Of a stretch of 64,000 nucleotides of DNA, positions 68 through 43,699 are shown piece after piece; positions within the stretch are counted from its first letter, which is position 1; the number at the start of each line of letters is the position of its first letter. The notes under the pieces are model-generated. The model searched no databases, was not told the DNA's origin, and saw only the letters and a list, made by a program, of their open reading frames with translations. The position numbers and the translations under genes are program-made. Source of the DNA: Alphaproteobacteria bacterium (lineage in GTDB: Bacteria > Pseudomonadota > Alphaproteobacteria > Micropepsales > Micropepsaceae); NCBI GenBank assembly GCA_947475445.1, contig CANJLC010000001.1, positions 62,001 to 126,000 on the forward strand, in the 5' to 3' direction.

Positions 68-1029
68 CAAAAATAATCCTTGTACTGACTATTTTGGTGG
101 CGGCCGCCTTTGCCGCCTCTCTCCTGGCGGGCCGCATCTGGCTGCCCCCCGCCGACATACTGTCGGGCAAAAGCGGGCTCACCTCCTTGATCGTGATGGA
201 TATTCGCCTGCCGCGCACCATCCTCGCCCTGCTGACCGGACTGACGCTGGGCCTCAGTGGCGCCGTGCTGCAAGGCCTGACGCGCAACCCGCTGGCCGAG
301 CCGGGCCTGCTGGGCGTCTCCACTGGCGCCGCATTGGGCGCAGTGATCGCGATCTATTTTGGCGTCACCGCCATTTCTTCACTTGCGGGCCCGCTGTTCG
401 GTCTCGCCGGAGCCTTTCTCGCTTGCACACTGACCTTCGCGCTTGGCCGCGGCGGCACCATCGCGCTGATCCTCGCAGGTGCCGCCGTCTCGAGCCTTAC
501 GGCTGCTGGCATTGCGCTGGCGCTCAACTTCGCGCCCAACCCCTATGCCGCCTATGAAATCATGAGCTGGCTGCTGGGCTCGCTGGCCGACAAGAGCTGG
601 GACCAGGTCCTTCTCGCGGCGCCCTTTATCATCCTGGGCGGCTTTCTTCTCTCCACCACCGGCCGCGCTCTCGACGCTCTGTCCCTGGGCGAAGCACAGG
701 CGCAAAGCCTCGGCATCCAAATGAACCGGTTGCAGCTGACGGTTATTCTCGGCACCGCGCTGGCCGTGGGCGCCGCCGTTTCGGTGACTGGCGCCATCGG
801 ATTCATCGGATTGGTCGCGCCGCATCTGGTGCGGCCTTTCGTGGGTCATCAGCCCAGCCGCATTCTCGCGCCCTCAGCCTTGGGCGGCGCGCTTCTTCTC
901 CTGCTGGCGGATATCGCGGTGCGCGAAATCCATCTGGGTCCTGAAATCAAGCTGGGTGTTTTCACCAGCCTGATCGGCGCGCCCTTTTTCTTCTGGCTTG
1001 TGCTGCGCCTGCCGGGGAAATCGCCATGA
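64..1029 (+). CDS. FecCD-family ABC transporter permease (iron-siderophore / haem / cobalamin type)
   Basis: A 321-residue polytopic membrane protein of the BtuC/FecCD family, whose members form the inner-membrane channel of type II ABC importers for iron chelates, haem or vitamin B12. The family signature is visible as GAVLQGLTRNPLAEPGLLG around residues 66-84, and the later GFIGLVAPHLVRPFVGH segment (about residues 245-261) is the usual coupling-helix region. About nine or ten hydrophobic helices fit the family. The start overlaps the preceding stop and the end overlaps the ATP-binding gene by 4 bp, so the two form one unit. The substrate cannot be told from the permease alone. Confidence 0.9.
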   Translation: MTKIILVLTILVAAAFAASLLAGRIWLPPADILSGKSGLTSLIVMDIRLPRTILALLTGLTLGLSGAVLQGLTRNPLAEPGLLGVSTGAALGAVIAIYFGVTAISSLAGPLFGLAGAFLACTLTFALGRGGTIALILAGAAVSSLTAAGIALALNFAPNPYAAYEIMSWLLGSLADKSWDQVLLAAPFIILGGFLLSTTGRALDALSLGEAQAQSLGIQMNRLQLTVILGTALAVGAAVSVTGAIGFIGLVAPHLVRPFVGHQPSRILAPSALGGALLLLLADIAVREIHLGPEIKLGVFTSLIGAPFFFWLVLRLPGKSP

Positions 1030-1781
1030 CGTTTCTCATGGCCGAACATGTCAGCGTGACGCGGGGCGGGCACCCCATCCTGCAGGACGTTTGCTTTGAG
1101 GCGGGCGCCGGCGATTTTATTGCCGTGATCGGACCCAACGGCGCGGGCAAATCCACTTTGCTGTCGGCGCTGGCGGGCCTGATCCAGCCGTCCAAAGGCG
1201 ATGTCAGCCTGGACGGCATCAATCTCGCGCGCATCCCGCTCAAGGCACTGGCACAGCGCCGCGCCTACCTGCCGCAAAATCCCATTTGTGAATGGCCGCT
1301 TTCGGTGGAGCGGCTTGTGGCGCTGGGCCTGACGCCGCAATTGCCGGCCTTCGGCGGCCTGCCGGACGCCTTCGAACCCGCCATCACCAAAGCCCTGCAA
1401 TCCTGTGATCTCACGGATCGCCGCCTCCAGCCGGTGAACACCCTGTCGGGCGGTGAATTGTCCCGCGCCATGCTGGCCCGCGCTTTGGTGGGTGAACCGG
1501 AAATACTGATCGTGGATGAGCCGGTGACGGGACTTGATCCCCGCCATGCCCTGGACTGCGCCCGGCGGCTGGCGGCCTATGCCGCGGAAGGAAAGCTGGT
1601 GATTGCCTCGCTGCATGACCTCACCCTGGCCGCGCGTTTTGCCCACCGCATCGTCGCCCTCAAGGGCGGCCGGGTAGCGGGCGAGGGGGCACTCACCTCC
1701 GGCCTGATCGGGCAGGTCTTTGACGTGGAAGCCCACATCTATGGCGCGGGCGCTGATGCCACCGTCGCCATATTGCGCTAG
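1026..1781 (+). CDS. ABC transporter ATP-binding protein, FecE/BtuD type
   Basis: A 251-residue ATPase that would energise the adjacent FecCD permease. Motifs in order: Walker A GPNGAGKST near residue 37, Q-loop YLPQNP, signature LSGGELSRAMLARAL, Walker B ILIVDEPVTGLD, and H-loop SLHD. The start ATG lies in the ATGA overlap with the permease stop. No motif discriminates iron, haem or cobalamin. Length and motif order are those of a complete, functional subunit. Confidence 0.92.
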   Translation: MTFLMAEHVSVTRGGHPILQDVCFEAGAGDFIAVIGPNGAGKSTLLSALAGLIQPSKGDVSLDGINLARIPLKALAQRRAYLPQNPICEWPLSVERLVALGLTPQLPAFGGLPDAFEPAITKALQSCDLTDRRLQPVNTLSGGELSRAMLARALVGEPEILIVDEPVTGLDPRHALDCARRLAAYAAEGKLVIASLHDLTLAARFAHRIVALKGGRVAGEGALTSGLIGQVFDVEAHIYGAGADATVAILR

Positions 1782-1790
1782 TCTGGCGCC

Positions 1791-2156
1791 ATGATGCTTC
1801 TGCGACCGGCCCTGATCCTGCTGCTGAGCGCCACGGCGGCTCATGCGGATTACTTCATGTATGGCCGCTATATCCCCATGGAGGGAAAAGTTGGCCAGGC
1901 TTTAATGTCCGATGCCACCTTCAGCGTGGAAGACATGCCGGAGCGCTGCGTGCCCGAGTGGAAAAGCATCAGCATCGCGGGCGTGCTGCCGCCTGGTCTG
2001 GACATTGCCAACAGTTTTTCCAGCGCCATCGGCGGAACGCCGACCACCGCAGGCGACTGGCCCGTGGTGGTGACCATCCATCAATTGGGCTGCTCGGTCG
2101 GCGATGCCGGCCACTTCGACCGCGCCATCAAGGTCAATTTTCACATAGCGCCATGA
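1791..2156 (+). CDS. Small secreted protein with a putative Ig-like (He_PIG-type) repeat
   Basis: A 121-residue protein with an N-terminal signal peptide (hydrophobic LILLLSATAAHA, cleavage likely after AHA). The mature part holds the pattern GVLPPGLDI followed by IGGTPTTAGDWPVVV, which resembles the turn-rich He_PIG/cadherin-like repeat (LPPGL ... G.PT..G.Y.VTV). Two cysteines (ERCVPEW and LGCSVG) could form a disulphide. It starts 9 bp after the ATPase stop and may be the last gene of that operon. Function unknown; the Ig-like assignment is motif-based. Confidence 0.6.
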   Translation: MMLLRPALILLLSATAAHADYFMYGRYIPMEGKVGQALMSDATFSVEDMPERCVPEWKSISIAGVLPPGLDIANSFSSAIGGTPTTAGDWPVVVTIHQLGCSVGDAGHFDRAIKVNFHIAP

Positions 2157-8807: not shown

Positions 8808-9947
8808 ATGAGCGATACTCCCAACAACAGACGCCGCACGGGTTTCATGATCCTTGGGGCCGTGGTGCTGGCCGCGGGCCTGGGCTATGGGCTCTACTGG
8901 TTCTTCGATGCGCGCTTTTATGAAAGCACCGACGACGCCTATGTCGCCGGCAATGTCGTGGCCGTGACCAGCCGCGAAAGCGCCACGGTCATGGCGCTGC
9001 ATGCCGACAATACCCAGGCGGTGAAGCGCGGGCAGCTGCTGATCGAAATGGATCCCGCCGTCGCCAATGTGAATATGGCGGCGGCCAAGGCCAATCTTGC
9101 CCGCGCCGTGCGTTCGGTGCGCGGAGAATTCTCCAGCGCGGAGTCCTTTCGCGCGCAACTGGCGCAGGCGCAAGTCGCCCTCAACCAGGCGCAAAGCGAC
9201 TATGAGCGGCGCAAGGGCGCCTCTGATGGCGCCGTTTCTGGAGAAGAACTGTCCCATGCCCAGGCCGGCGTTCAGGCGGCCCAGGCCGCTGTCAGCGCCG
9301 CCAAGGGCGGGCTGGATCATGCGCTGGCACAGGTCGACGGCAGCAACATCGCCGGCAATCCGGATGTCCTGGCTGCTGAAGCGCAGTTGCGCAACGCGGC
9401 CATCGCATTGGGCCATATGCGCCTTGTCGCGCCGGTGGATGGCGTGATCGCGCAGCGCACGGTGCAAGTGGGGCAGCAGGTGGGCGCCGGAACGCCGCTG
9501 ATGGCGGTGGTGTCGCTCTCCAATGTCTGGATCGACGCCAATTTCAAGGAAGTGCAACTCGAAGACATGCGCATAGGCCAGCCCGTGACGGTCAGGGCTG
9601 ACATCTATGGCGGCAGCGTCACCTATCATGGCCGCATCCAGGGCCTGGGCGCTGGTTCGGGTAGTGCCTTTGCGCTGCTGCCGCCGCAAAATGCTTCCGG
9701 CAACTGGATCAAGATCGTCCAGCGCGTGCCTGTGCGCATTGAGCTTGATCCCAAGGAACTCGCGGATCATCCGCTGCGCGTAGGGCTTTCGGTTTCCGTG
9801 AGCGTGAATATCGCGGACAGCAGCGGCCCGACCGTCAATTCGTCGACCGGCACGGGCGTGATGACCGGCAACACGGGCGAGGACAACAGCGCGGCCACCG
9901 ACGCGATGATCGCAAAGATCCTTGCCGACAATGGAGCACATCGGTGA
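8808..9947 (+). CDS. HlyD/EmrA-family periplasmic adaptor (efflux operon 1)
   Basis: A 379-residue membrane-fusion protein. One N-terminal TM helix (FMILGAVVLAAGLGYGLYW) is followed by a split biotinyl-lipoyl domain (TDDAYVAGNVVAVTSRES ... LVAPVDGVIAQRTVQVGQQV), a coiled-coil hairpin and a beta-barrel domain (WIDANFKEVQLEDMRIGQPV, NWIKIVQRVPVRIEL), the EmrA layout. ATG 8808 is chosen over the track start 8787 because AGGA sits 8 bp upstream and the extra residues would overlap the previous stop. The stop overlaps the GTG of emrB. Confidence 0.92.
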   Translation: MSDTPNNRRRTGFMILGAVVLAAGLGYGLYWFFDARFYESTDDAYVAGNVVAVTSRESATVMALHADNTQAVKRGQLLIEMDPAVANVNMAAAKANLARAVRSVRGEFSSAESFRAQLAQAQVALNQAQSDYERRKGASDGAVSGEELSHAQAGVQAAQAAVSAAKGGLDHALAQVDGSNIAGNPDVLAAEAQLRNAAIALGHMRLVAPVDGVIAQRTVQVGQQVGAGTPLMAVVSLSNVWIDANFKEVQLEDMRIGQPVTVRADIYGGSVTYHGRIQGLGAGSGSAFALLPPQNASGNWIKIVQRVPVRIELDPKELADHPLRVGLSVSVSVNIADSSGPTVNSSTGTGVMTGNTGEDNSAATDAMIAKILADNGAHR

Positions 9948-39603: not shown

Positions 39604-39824
39604 TGCCAATGCATGCGATTGCGCCGATGCCTTTGTGAGCATTTTATGTGCCTGAAAAAACCGCATCCCGGTGCATCGCCGCTTTGACGGCATATTCGGG
39701 ACGTGCCTGGCTTTCCCAGTTGCGCGAGTTGCAGCGCAGCAATCCGGGCTATTCCGCGTAAGACTTTTCCCTACAAAAGCTGCACGGGTTGACTTGCGCG
39801 CGAAGGACTGGCGAAAGTGCCTTC
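39604..39824. other. Intergenic region between glpK and the TetR gene
   Basis: 221 bp. The only open frame is a short GTG ORF (39648-39761, 37 codons, ending LRELQRSNPGYSA) with no clear ribosome site, which I do not call. No terminator hairpin is obvious after glpK. Confidence 0.4.
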
Positions 39825-40421
39825 ATGGCGGCGCAAGTTCTGCAAATCAAAAAAAAGTCGGACAGCCTGACCAAGTTGAAAGCGGCGGCGCGCAAGCTGT
39901 TCGTGGAGCGCGGCTATCACGCCACGCGGCCACAGGACATTGCGCGTGAAGCGGGCCTCGGCCACGGCACTTTCTACCTGCATTATCCCGACAAGCGTGC
40001 CTGCTTCCTCGCCTTCGTCGAGGATGCGCGGCAGGAACTGGATGCACATCTTGTCGCCGCGCGCTGCCCGGATGGCACGCTGGAAGAATTGATCTCCGCA
40101 AACCTCAACGCGATCTATGATTATTCCGATAGTCATCCTGGCGTGCTGCGCGCCGCCATGACGGACGAAATGGTAATTGACGCCGAAGGCGCCCAGGCCG
40201 TGCCGCTGCTGGTGCGCTGGGGCGAGGAATGGGCTCAGTTCGTTCGCAAGGCTGCCGAAAAAGGCCAGGCCTGCCCCAAATATGATGCCGGTATCATCGG
40301 GCAGGCCATTGTTGGCGCCCTGCACCAGACGGCCTGCGAAGGCTCACGCGGCCAGCTTTGCCGCAAGGCGGTGGTGGAAAATCTCACCCATTTCCTGACC
40401 CGGGCCCTGAAATCCGACTAA
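39825..40421 (+). CDS. TetR-family transcriptional regulator
   Basis: A 198-residue regulator with an N-terminal TetR HTH: KLKAAARKLFVERGYHATRPQDIAREAGLGHGTFYLHYPDKRACFLAF. The C-terminal helical ligand domain (residues 70-198) is not diagnostic. ATG 39825 (MAAQVLQIKKK) is chosen; the track start 12 codons earlier has no support. It lies 67 bp upstream of the ftrABC iron operon, which has its own palindromic operator, so a link to iron is possible but not shown. Confidence 0.88.
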   Translation: MAAQVLQIKKKSDSLTKLKAAARKLFVERGYHATRPQDIAREAGLGHGTFYLHYPDKRACFLAFVEDARQELDAHLVAARCPDGTLEELISANLNAIYDYSDSHPGVLRAAMTDEMVIDAEGAQAVPLLVRWGEEWAQFVRKAAEKGQACPKYDAGIIGQAIVGALHQTACEGSRGQLCRKAVVENLTHFLTRALKSD

Positions 40422-40488: not shown

Positions 40489-41007
40489 ATGCGCCGGACC
40501 CTGATCACCCTTGGACTGCTGACTGCTGCCGCGCCCGCCTGGGCTGGCGCGCAATTTCCCATCGGTGACGCCGTGGAACGCGAAGGCATGACCATCGCGG
40601 CCAGTTACCTGACAGGCGTTCAGATGGATAAAAATCCCGCAGGCATGGGCACGGGGCAGGACGCCGTGAACCTGCAGGCTGACATCCACGCCACGGCAGG
40701 CGAAAGCCATGGCTTTGCCCGGGATGCCTGGATTCCCTATCTCTCCATCAGCTTCAGCCTGACGCGCGATGGCGCGCCGACCTACAAGAAGAACGGCCTG
40801 CTGTATCCGCTCGCCGCCAAGGATGGCCCGCATTATGCCGCCAACGTGGATATGGCGGGGCCCGGCACCTATCACCTCGCCACCATCATTTCGCCGCCTT
40901 CCTCGCATGGGCTGCTGCGCCACACCGACAAGGCCAATGGCGTGCCGGAATGGTGGAAGCCGATCAGCCTGAACTGGACTTTTACTTATCCGGACAAGAG
41001 CAAATGA
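40489..41007 (+). CDS. ftrA: P19/Tp34/FtrA-type periplasmic iron-binding protein
   Basis: A 172-residue secreted protein with a signal peptide (LITLGLLTAAAPAWAGA). The mature part matches the Fe2+ transport P19 family: FPIGDAVEREGMTIAASYLTGVQMDK, LQADIHATAGESHGFA, WIPYLSISF, GPGTYHLATIISPP and LLRHTDKANGV. His and Met residues in these motifs bind copper/iron in P19. It is the first gene of a three-gene ferrous/ferric iron uptake operon and its stop overlaps the next start. Confidence 0.85.
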   Translation: MRRTLITLGLLTAAAPAWAGAQFPIGDAVEREGMTIAASYLTGVQMDKNPAGMGTGQDAVNLQADIHATAGESHGFARDAWIPYLSISFSLTRDGAPTYKKNGLLYPLAAKDGPHYAANVDMAGPGTYHLATIISPPSSHGLLRHTDKANGVPEWWKPISLNWTFTYPDKSK

Positions 41008-41324
41008 AGAAATTTATCGCCCTTTCGCTCCTGCTTGCCGTCAGCGCTCCCGCGCTGGCTGATATTCCCGTCGTGGTGACGCTCAAGGATCACAAATTCA
41101 GCCCCAGCACGATCCGCGTGAAGGCCAACCAGCCTTCCATGATCAAGTTGATCAACAAGGACGCTTCGGCCGAGGAATTTGATTCCCCGGCGCTCAAGGT
41201 CGAAAAGGTTGTGGCGGGCAATTCCAGCGGCAATGTGCGCATCCGCGCCCTGCCGCCGGGCAAATATCCCTTCATGGGGGAATTCCATGCCGCCACCGCC
41301 CAGGGCGTTGTGATCGCGGAATAA
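41004..41324 (+). CDS. ftrB: FtrB-type cupredoxin-like periplasmic protein
   Basis: A 106-residue secreted cupredoxin-fold protein: signal peptide KKFIALSLLLAVSAPALAD, then VVVTLKDHKFSPSTIRVKANQP and a C-terminal PGKYPFMGEFHAATAQGVVIAE. The canonical Cys ligand of type I copper is missing; Met and His in FMGEFH remain, as in FtrB of Brucella/Bordetella-type systems. ATG 41004 overlaps the ftrA stop (ATGA); the longer track ORF is not used. Confidence 0.85.
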   Translation: MKKFIALSLLLAVSAPALADIPVVVTLKDHKFSPSTIRVKANQPSMIKLINKDASAEEFDSPALKVEKVVAGNSSGNVRIRALPPGKYPFMGEFHAATAQGVVIAE

Positions 41325-41338
41325 CGGAAAAAACCCCC

Positions 41339-42175
41339 ATGCTTTCTGCCCTTGTCATTGTTTTTCGCGAAGCCATCGAAGCCGGCCTGATCATCGGCAT
41401 CGTGCTGGCCGCCACGCAGGGCGTTGCGCGCCGCGCCTGGTATGTCGCGCTTGGCGTGTTTGGCGGTGTGTTGGGTGCCTGCCTTGTCGCCGCCTTTGCC
41501 GGCGAACTTGCGTCTGCCTTCCAGGATTCCGGCCAGGAGCTGTTCAACGCCACCATCCTGCTGCTCGCCGTCGCCATGCTCACCTGGCACAATGTCTGGA
41601 TGGCCAGCCATGGCCGGCAAATGGCGCGCGAGCTCAAGGCCGCCGGTCTTGAAGTGGCAATGGGCAGCCGCACCCTGATGGCGCTTTCGATTGTTGTTGG
41701 CGTTGCGGTTCTGCGCGAAGGCTCGGAAGTGGTGCTGTTCCTGTATGGCATTGCCGCCCAGGGTGGCACGTCCGGGGCGGGTTTGGCGCTGGGCGGCGCG
41801 CTGGGCCTTGGCGCAGGCGCCGTGGTTTCAGCGCTGATGTATTTCGGGCTGCTGGCCATTCCGGCGCACCGCCTGTTCGCGGTGACATCAGGCCTGATTA
41901 CCCTGCTGGCGGCAGGCATGGCGGCACAGGCCGTCCTGTTCCTGCAGAATGGCGGTTACATCACCGTCTTCTTCGACAGCGTCTGGAACACCTCCTGGCT
42001 GCTGGCCGAAGACTCCATTCCCGGCAAGCTGCTGCACACGCTGATCGGATACACCGATGCGCCCAACCTGGCCCAGATCCTCGCCTATCTCGCCACCATC
42101 GCGATGATGTGGACGTTGATGCGCCTGGTGGGCCGCCCCGCGCCGAAAGTCCCGCGTCCGGCCCCGGCCGAATAA
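41339..42175 (+). CDS. ftrC: FTR1-family high-affinity iron permease
   Basis: A 278-residue, seven-TM permease with both iron-binding REXXE motifs, in VFREAIEAGLIIGIV (residues 9-23) and LREGSEVVLFLYG. These Glu residues carry iron through the membrane. The gene follows ftrB by 14 bp. Characterised FtrABCD systems also have a ferredoxin-like FtrD; none is adjacent here, as the next gene is unrelated. Confidence 0.92.
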   Translation: MLSALVIVFREAIEAGLIIGIVLAATQGVARRAWYVALGVFGGVLGACLVAAFAGELASAFQDSGQELFNATILLLAVAMLTWHNVWMASHGRQMARELKAAGLEVAMGSRTLMALSIVVGVAVLREGSEVVLFLYGIAAQGGTSGAGLALGGALGLGAGAVVSALMYFGLLAIPAHRLFAVTSGLITLLAAGMAAQAVLFLQNGGYITVFFDSVWNTSWLLAEDSIPGKLLHTLIGYTDAPNLAQILAYLATIAMMWTLMRLVGRPAPKVPRPAPAE

Positions 42176-42190
42176 AACTCGGCGCAAATT

Positions 42191-42202
42191 CAATTCGAAT
42201 TG
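42191..42202. promoter_or_regulatory. Perfect 12-bp palindrome upstream of the HTH-Sel1 gene
   Basis: CAATTCGAATTG is a perfect palindrome, 58 bp before the ATG of the HTH-Sel1 protein and 15 bp after the ftrC stop. It lies in an AT-rich patch and could be an operator, perhaps autoregulatory. No clear -35/-10 pair could be fixed. Confidence 0.3.
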
Positions 42203-42259
42203 CGCGCATTTCCCGGCATTTTTTGTAACACCGCCGTTCTAGCCTGCATCCGTGGGTTC

Positions 42260-43699
42260 ATGGGACGTTCGGGCTTGGGGCAAATTTCGGATTCCGATGC
42301 GCGTGCATTGCTGCTGACGGCGGCGCGTGGCCTGCTGGCGCAGGACGCCAACTTCACCATCAAGACTCTGCTGGCGCGCGCAGAGGTCAGCCGCAGCCAG
42401 TTCCGCCGCTGCTTCACCGGCAAGGACCAGTTGCTGGCCGCAGTCACTGGCGAGGAGGTGAGGGGCCTTAGCCAGATCCTGGATGTTGCCCAGCCGGAAA
42501 TGTTGCGTGCGGCGGTGGGCAGCGACATCGCGCCTTCCCCTGCCGCCAGGCCTGAGCCGGCGCGGGCCGATGCCTGGCTGGAGCGCAGGCTGCGCGTGTT
42601 CGAGCGCGCTTTGAGCGGTCTGGAAAAGCGCCAGGAAAAAACCGAACAGACATTGGCGCAAAAACTTGCGTTGATCGAGGAAAGGCTGGGCGCGCTGACG
42701 GTGGCACAGACCGTTGCGCAAAAGGCGGACACACCCGCGCCTGAGCCCATGGAAACTGCCCCGCAGCCGCCCGCCGATCCCGTTTGCGAAAATGCGGCGC
42801 CGGTGCTTTCACCAGCCGTAATGGCACATGTCGAGGAAATTGCGGCTGCGGAGATTGAGCCGGCGGCGCAGCCCGTTACCGGAAAGGATATCGAGGACTT
42901 CATCAGCCATGCCCGGCGCGCGGCGCAGAAAGCCGCCTTGGTGGCACCCGTCCCGAAACAGGTTTCCTGGCGCCGCCGCTGGCTGGCCTGGGCCGCCGTG
43001 GCGGTGATGTCCGTTCTGGTCAGCATGGAATTCTGGTTTATCGGCAGCGCCATTGCCCGCGGCATTCCCATGCCAGCCGCCACCGTTCACCGGGAAATGG
43101 CGCCGACCGGCATCGCGCGCATCATTGCCCTGGCGGACAATGGCGATCCTTTGTCCCAGACCAAACTGGCGCTGGCCTATCTTCGCGGCCAGGGCGTGGC
43201 GCAGGATGACGCCGCCGCCCTGCGCTGGAGCCGCGCCGCGGCGCTGCAGGGACAGCCGGTGGCGCAATATCTGCTGGGCACGCTGTATCTCGACACCAAC
43301 CAGGCCGAAGCCGTGCGCTGGTTTGAGGCCGCCGCCGCCCAGGGCAATGTGCGGGCGATGCACAATCTGGCCATCGCCTATGCCGAAGGCACGGGCGCGC
43401 CCAAGGACCCCGGGCTTGCGGTGCAATGGTTCGCGCATGCGGCGGGGCAGGGCTATCGCGATTCCCAATTCGATCTGGCGGTGATGCATGAACGCGGCCT
43501 GGGCGTGAAGCAGAGCCAGGATGCGGCGCTGACCTGGTACCTGATCGCGGCCGGGCAGGGGGATGGGCCATCCGCCGACCGTGCCGCTTTCCTCAAGGGC
43601 CAGATGGCGTCTGCCGACGTGCGCAGGGCTGAAGCCGCGGCGGCGGCTTTTGTGCCGCTGTCCGTTACCGGCCCTGCCAACGATTTTCCAAAGATCTAG
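42260..43699 (+). CDS. Transmembrane protein with TetR-like HTH, coiled coil and periplasmic Sel1 repeats
   Basis: A 479-residue protein of unusual build. Residues 14-62 read as a TetR N-terminal HTH (LLTAARGLLA ... TIKTLLARAEVSRSQFRRCFTGKDQLLAAV). Residues about 95-150 form a coiled coil (WLERRLRVFERALSGLEKRQEK), then a Pro/Ala-rich linker, a single TM helix near 238-260 (WLAWAAVAVMSVLVSMEFWF) after the basic stop WRRR, and four or so Sel1 repeats (AYLRGQGVAQDDAAALRWSRAAA, GTLYLDTNQAEAVRWFEAAAAQG, AYAEGTGAPKDPGLAVQWFAHAA). Topology would put HTH inside and Sel1 outside. ATG 42260 is the first start before the HTH. It could be a membrane-bound one-component regulator or a scaffold. Confidence 0.8.
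   Translation: MGRSGLGQISDSDARALLLTAARGLLAQDANFTIKTLLARAEVSRSQFRRCFTGKDQLLAAVTGEEVRGLSQILDVAQPEMLRAAVGSDIAPSPAARPEPARADAWLERRLRVFERALSGLEKRQEKTEQTLAQKLALIEERLGALTVAQTVAQKADTPAPEPMETAPQPPADPVCENAAPVLSPAVMAHVEEIAAAEIEPAAQPVTGKDIEDFISHARRAAQKAALVAPVPKQVSWRRRWLAWAAVAVMSVLVSMEFWFIGSAIARGIPMPAATVHREMAPTGIARIIALADNGDPLSQTKLALAYLRGQGVAQDDAAALRWSRAAALQGQPVAQYLLGTLYLDTNQAEAVRWFEAAAAQGNVRAMHNLAIAYAEGTGAPKDPGLAVQWFAHAAGQGYRDSQFDLAVMHERGLGVKQSQDAALTWYLIAAGQGDGPSADRAAFLKGQMASADVRRAEAAAAAFVPLSVTGPANDFPKI

Follow-up and report, generated by a model that had tools for sequence, protein, structure and literature searches.

A predicted membrane protein joining a TetR-type helix-turn-helix to a PodJ-like Sel1 domain in an alphaproteobacterial genus

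A 479-amino-acid protein encoded within the window (the whole 64,000-nucleotide stretch of DNA that was analysed) is, as judged from its sequence, a single-pass membrane protein in which a TetR-type helix-turn-helix (HTH) is joined to a PodJ-like Sel1 domain, and its probable role is to connect chromosomal DNA with the envelope of the cell. The reading that we favour, with a probability of about 0.45, is that of a PodJ-type scaffold, bitopic in the inner membrane, with the HTH on its cytoplasmic tip; we infer that this is slightly preferable to a sensor in the style of CadC and ToxR. The open reading frame was present as described by the first-pass annotation, and the order of parts that the latter had claimed (TetR-type HTH, coiled coil, proline-rich linker, transmembrane [TM] helix and Sel1 repeats) was borne out by Pfam family profiles and by an AlphaFold2 model of the window protein built on the family alignment (Table 1). 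The full-length model had a pTM of 0.50, so that the mutual arrangement of the parts is not fixed by it.

Table 1. Positions in the window of the gene, its parts and its upstream surroundings
Feature	Position	Strand	Basis or remark
Genes for Fe2+ transport protein, cupredoxin and FTR1 permease (upstream neighbours, usually present)	40489..42175	+	Pfam Iron_transport, cupredoxin, FTR1
Conserved promoter-like region (AAATT..(G)AATTG, G/TGTAA and TAG..T blocks)	42185..42246	+	Alignment of 15 orthologous upstream regions
Perfect palindrome CAATTCGAATTG, intergenic	42191..42202		AATT core invariant, left half not
Complete gene of the 479-residue protein (all parts listed below)	42260..43699	+	Open reading frame, Pfam, family alignment, AlphaFold
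TetR_N-type HTH, residues 11-76 (recognition helix 45-51)	42290..42487	+	Pfam, 26 of 28 family members; AlphaFold and Foldseek
Coiled-coil helix, residues 102-156	42563..42727	+	Alignment, AlphaFold, heptad check
Pro/Ala-rich linker, mostly low confidence, residues 157-236	42728..42967	+	Alignment, AlphaFold
Single TM helix, residues 237-266	42968..43057	+	AlphaFold, hydrophobic segment and K/R count
Sel1 repeat domain, PodJ-type, predicted periplasmic, residues 284-462	43109..43645	+	Pfam, AlphaFold, tree, structure match

The TetR-type nature of the head emerged from the family rather than from the single sequence. Against the window protein alone, Pfam TetR_N scored 16.5 bits (E = 0.0074), below its cut-off of 24 bits, but in the alignment of 28 family members it matched 26 at E ≤ 0.01 (best, 3.3e-15). 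The N-terminus of the family profile also matched solved TetR proteins (RolR 3aqs, 5e-11; TtgR, 6e-10), and with a separate model of residues 1-87 all 50 best PDB matches listed by Foldseek were TetR-family proteins, at probabilities of 0.99 to 1.00 and E-values of 0.03 to 0.3, which are modest because the domain is so small. The first-pass annotation had staked its proposal on significant TetR_N and Sel1 matches: the single-sequence TetR_N search fell short, the relatives overturned that outcome, and the Sel1 match was strong. In the full-length model the N-terminal helices (residues 11-27, 34-41, 45-51 and 55-76) had pLDDT values of about 83 to 96. For its part, the TetR_C ligand/dimerisation domain gave no Pfam match, and the helices that follow residue 76 are those of the coil, the TM segment and Sel1.

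Three phenylalanines of the HTH (F32, F48 and F52) did not vary in the orthologue clade. Taking DNA-contacting positions from general knowledge of TetR-family structures, the presumed phosphate contacts were largely retained, with mostly T or S at position 33, R or K at position 45 in 15 of 16 sequences, R at position 49 in 14 of 16 and K or R at position 55 in all. Recognition-helix positions 44, 46, 47 and 50 differed among orthologues, and the recognition-helix tyrosine that is conserved in TetR was replaced by arginine in most close orthologues. The head of the window protein is basic (net charge, +5; recognition region, +4). Among divergent members, position 55 was K or R except in L075, which has T at this position and an acidic recognition region (net -2).

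The coiled coil, a helix of 55 residues in the model, opens with the motif D-x-WLERRLRVFER (residues 104-116), identical in all close orthologues, and the linker holds a short conserved helix at about residues 208-226 (pattern EM.D.L..AR). A single TM helix with WRRR and a periplasmic Sel1 domain had been proposed for the C-terminal half, and as a prediction this is supported by AlphaFold, hydrophobicity and K/R bias: WRRR overlaps the start of the helix, and one hydrophobic TM-like segment per protein was found in nearly all 28 members (L008 has a second, borderline peak within the HTH). An excess of K/R on the N-terminal side of this segment, present in all 28 members except L007 (equal counts), predicts that the head lies inside and Sel1 outside (N-in/C-out).

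The Sel1 assignment was clear-cut already for the window protein itself, in which Pfam Sel1 matched four stretches above its cut-off (E = 1.4e-25); it matched 28 of 28 family members as well. The C-terminus of the family profile matched solved Sel1 proteins, the full AlphaFold model matched LpnE (E = 2.7e-10) and other Sel1 proteins, and the modelled solenoid reached a pLDDT of about 98 across most of its length. Matches to the NCBIfam families MerG, MotX, ExoR and AlgK lay far under the cut-offs and were set aside as generic Sel1 similarity.

This half of the protein was 43 to 50% identical to the C-terminus of long proteins (800 to 1400 amino acids) in the same genomes, the homology reaching into the C-terminal tail. 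These paralogues, which we take to be PodJ-type from architecture rather than from a curated PodJ model, start with PWNVxGIPPExREAxRxAARREGLSxGEWL followed by long coiled coils, and in their build they correspond to what has been published on PodJ (PMC9926476). The N-terminal motif, in the form PWNVxGIPPExREAxR..G[LV].xGEWL, was common to the paralogues L133, L134, L135, L128 and L129; a ribbon-helix-helix at this end, an idea formed by eye, was dropped when Pfam gave none in L133, L128 and L129. The window protein shares with the PodJ-type proteins a coiled coil, a disordered region, a TM helix and a predicted periplasmic Sel1 domain. Unlike them, it has a TetR HTH where they carry the N-terminal PWxVxGI..GEWL motif and several hundred residues of multi-segment coiled coil. 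By its sequence it matches part of what defines a PodJ-type protein; one defining feature of PodJ is absent from it, and so is one of soluble TetR regulators.

No long PodJ-type paralogue was found in the window genome (G000; assembly 98.4% complete) with a query from its nearest relative, G071; the window gene ranked first, followed by short Sel1 frames only. PopZ-family genes were present in five of five genomes tested, the window genome included. The window genome has a PopZ-family gene but no long PodJ-type protein was found in it, while G071 has one. Among other small genomes, the window protein found no match in G077 and G079 and only weak ones in G075 and G080.

Among known systems, TetR/AcrR regulators have the same N-terminal HTH helices 1 to 4, whereas the window protein lacks their ligand/dimerisation domain and is fused to a coil, a TM helix and Sel1. 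With CadC, ToxR and TcpP it shares a cytoplasmic domain of DNA-binding type, one TM helix and a periplasmic domain, all predicted here. CadC and ToxR, however, use a winged-helix domain of the OmpR type, where the window protein has a TetR HTH, and the latter also has a long linker and Sel1 repeats of the PodJ type. What sets SlmA and RefZ apart from the window protein, for which no FtsZ link is known, is that they are soluble and have the full TetR C-terminal domain. They resemble it in their TetR-type HTH, and as TetR-family DNA-binding proteins with a role in cell division they use it in spatial cell organisation (FtsZ/septum placement; PMC6657595). PodJ, the polar scaffold of Caulobacter, has the same order of parts outside the head, with cytoplasmic coiled coils, a disordered region, one TM helix and periplasmic Sel1 (PMC9926476).

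The order was sampled with 96 genomes from one family, spread over seven genera in the collection, 69 of them belonging to the genus of the window. The full-length profile spanned HTH to Sel1 in 40 of these 69, and reading of loci added nine more (G019, with the HTH in another frame, G023, G027, G029, G045, G046, G049, G070 and G081), giving the TetR-TM-Sel1 build in at least 49 of 69. In a second genus, one genome had it (G006, locus L112). Beyond the genus of the window, a search of 385 genomes across the class with a full-length profile (E ≤ 1e-60) and an HTH-plus-coil profile (E ≤ 1e-12) gave no example, although with such strict cut-offs and few candidates scored per genome a diverged version could be missed. 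The same domain order, for which homologues in other alphaproteobacteria had been suggested as a check, was found in the genus and in G006 but, at these cut-offs, not in the rest of the class sample. A pattern search of 85,462 GTDB genomes, a method limited to sequences closely related to its patterns, returned Sel1-only relatives.

Maximum-likelihood analysis of the Sel1 region gave a tree (midpoint root, so that the direction of change is unfixed) in which the window protein's close orthologues formed one fully supported group of 18, and the remaining HTH-bearing proteins interleaved with PodJ-type and HTH-less proteins. Presence or absence of the HTH calls for about eight changes on this tree, at least five of them being forced by well-supported branches, which indicates that the head was gained or lost repeatedly. 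Proteins with coil, TM helix and Sel1 but no HTH occurred in G068, G066, G026, G017 and G057, as well as in G005 and G007 of the second genus; none of the frames in the stretches examined contained an HTH that belongs to the gene. Judging by these several relatives, which keep coil, TM helix and Sel1 without the head, the HTH appears to be dispensable at times. In L082, the HTH-less locus of G066, the upstream block (CGAACGAT..GCTT..CTTTGGTAAG) is still the one found in L067 and L079, its sisters with an HTH; one other, weaker HTH match lies elsewhere on the L082 stretch. L071 (G019:C4:43001-62500), at one point considered HTH-less, was rejected as such because an HTH lies in another frame at about 8964-9158; that this frame differs from the coil-TM-Sel1 frame reflects a frameshift in the gene or in the assembly.

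A palindrome had been reported upstream of the gene. It is there, ending 57 bases 5' of the ATG, but as a palindrome it is perfect only in the window and in L009; what is conserved otherwise is its AATT core, invariant in 15 of 15 orthologue upstream regions, while the left half varies. In this alignment (n = 15) an AAATT-like block lies 5' of the core and the G/TGTAA and TAG..T blocks lie 3' of it, with invariant columns T36, A39, A40, T41, T42, A68, T81, A82 and T86. The window contains 35 perfect 12-bp palindromes, so that one within a given 100 bases is not rare; just two are as AT-rich as this one. Use of the palindrome as a regulon marker was abandoned, since AATTCGAATT occurs at three genome sites and the other two overlap long open reading frames. 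We infer from the conserved blocks that the region may be a promoter with a possible binding site; that the HTH of the window protein binds the element is a guess.

The gene lies in the order glpK, soluble tetR, (iron genes), window gene, yihY, asmA, lemA, two TPM genes and metG, and the order of this glpK-to-metG block was kept in many genomes of the genus. That the gene follows an iron-uptake operon, as had been pointed out, holds insofar as the iron genes are real and the neighbourhood is common; however, no iron genes were recognised in L070, L080 and L127, where the relative of the window gene is still present (in L070 and L080 beside other members of the conserved block). Judged from gene order, the iron link would be one of conserved synteny, common but dispensable, and not proof of function. 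Between glpK and the iron genes, a gene for a soluble TetR-family protein (39789-40421; TetR_N, 6.8e-15) often travels with the locus. A dedicated regulator of the adjoining iron-uptake genes, which would be a special case of a membrane-bound one-component regulator, might be suggested by the adjacency to FTR1, cupredoxin and Iron_transport genes here and in many genomes, but given the persistence of the gene in the three loci and the separate soluble TetR gene it is highly improbable.

If the protein is a PodJ-type scaffold with a DNA-binding head, the coiled coil with its conserved opening motif would dimerise it, replacing the absent TetR ligand/dimerisation domain, the head would bind DNA as paired HTHs, and the Sel1 domain would hold envelope or peptidoglycan partners. 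Most likely, it would then anchor chromosomal DNA close to the pole or septum as a site in the envelope, or deliver a DNA-bound complex to such a site, and effects on transcription, including that from its own promoter, would be secondary. PodJ supports PopZ-dependent centromere tethering (PMC10127582). We lean to this reading because the protein shares its Sel1 half and C-terminal tail by homology with PodJ-type proteins and the two interleave in the Sel1 tree, because several relatives lack the HTH and keep the other parts, because the recognition helix varies across orthologues, because the window genome has the window gene as its only strong match to a long PodJ-type query, because PopZ-family genes occur in all five genomes tested, and because in L082 the upstream block has been retained although the HTH is absent; the retained HTH core and likely phosphate contacts argue for a head that binds DNA. 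Against it, the retention of the HTH in most of the genus would be just as natural for a regulator, the paralogues are called PodJ-type by their architecture, and the protein, with 479 residues against 800 to 1400, is far smaller than PodJ and showed no recognisable counterpart of the PopZ-binding region of PodJ (coiled coil 4-6). A more specific version, in which a PodJ-derived scaffold swapped its N-terminus for a TetR HTH, tethers DNA directly to the pole or septum and replaces PodJ in streamlined genomes without a long PodJ, as here, is rather unlikely as a whole.

The first-pass annotation had left the choice between a sensor and a PodJ-like scaffold, and both survive. In a transmembrane one-component regulator of the CadC/ToxR style, Sel1 would respond to a signal from the periplasm or the envelope, and the HTH, held at the membrane, would bind its own and a few target promoters; this is a real possibility, if short of even odds. 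The conserved HTH of most members, the single TM helix with N-in prediction, and the conserved upstream AATT element, perfectly palindromic in the window genome, are all consistent with it, whereas the Sel1 homology, the relatives that do without the HTH (L082 with its upstream block intact) and the variable recognition helix point more to PodJ than to a sensor, as do the poor conservation of the palindrome as such and the two other copies of its core, which overlap long reading frames. A third reading, in which the head no longer binds DNA and serves a purely structural scaffold as a protein-interaction or oligomerisation module, seems doubtful: the Tyr-to-Arg replacement, the acidic L075 (the sole member without K/R at position 55) and the headless relatives speak for it, but the head of the window protein is basic and its likely phosphate contacts are largely in place.

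Transmembrane regulators are widespread, and they have been defined by the presence of a DNA-binding domain and at least one TM segment in one protein, a description that the window protein fits by sequence; in that survey of 50,302 such regulators, TetR goes unmentioned in the main text (PMC10269533). The statement that no described system has this build holds within the open-access papers searched, in which we found no description of a TetR HTH with TM and Sel1. A TetR head on a PodJ-type Sel1 scaffold would unite DNA binding and envelope polarity, which are normally separate, in one small protein, and the natural relatives with and without the HTH allow a comparison that can ask what a DNA-binding head adds. 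It bears also on the origin of transmembrane regulators, as a case in which a scaffold would have gained an HTH rather than a soluble regulator a membrane anchor.

Some loci departed from the common arrangement. In L127 (G070:C21:17001-21000, about 545-1981, minus strand), the frame corresponds to the window protein as far as residue 328, beyond which comes the C-terminal part (residues 473-664) of the AsmA-type neighbour; yihY is missing, and the arrangement represents a deletion fusion or a misassembly. In L125 (G081:C17:1-12000), the frame enters a long run of glycine codons (poly-G/C) in the first ~100 bases, where the contig ends; this run is probably an artefact of assembly. L113 (G074:C93:39501-45500) contains two adjacent divergent paralogues, in frames of 361 and 492 amino acids, each with HTH and Sel1, and the same genome also has an orthologue at G074:C7.
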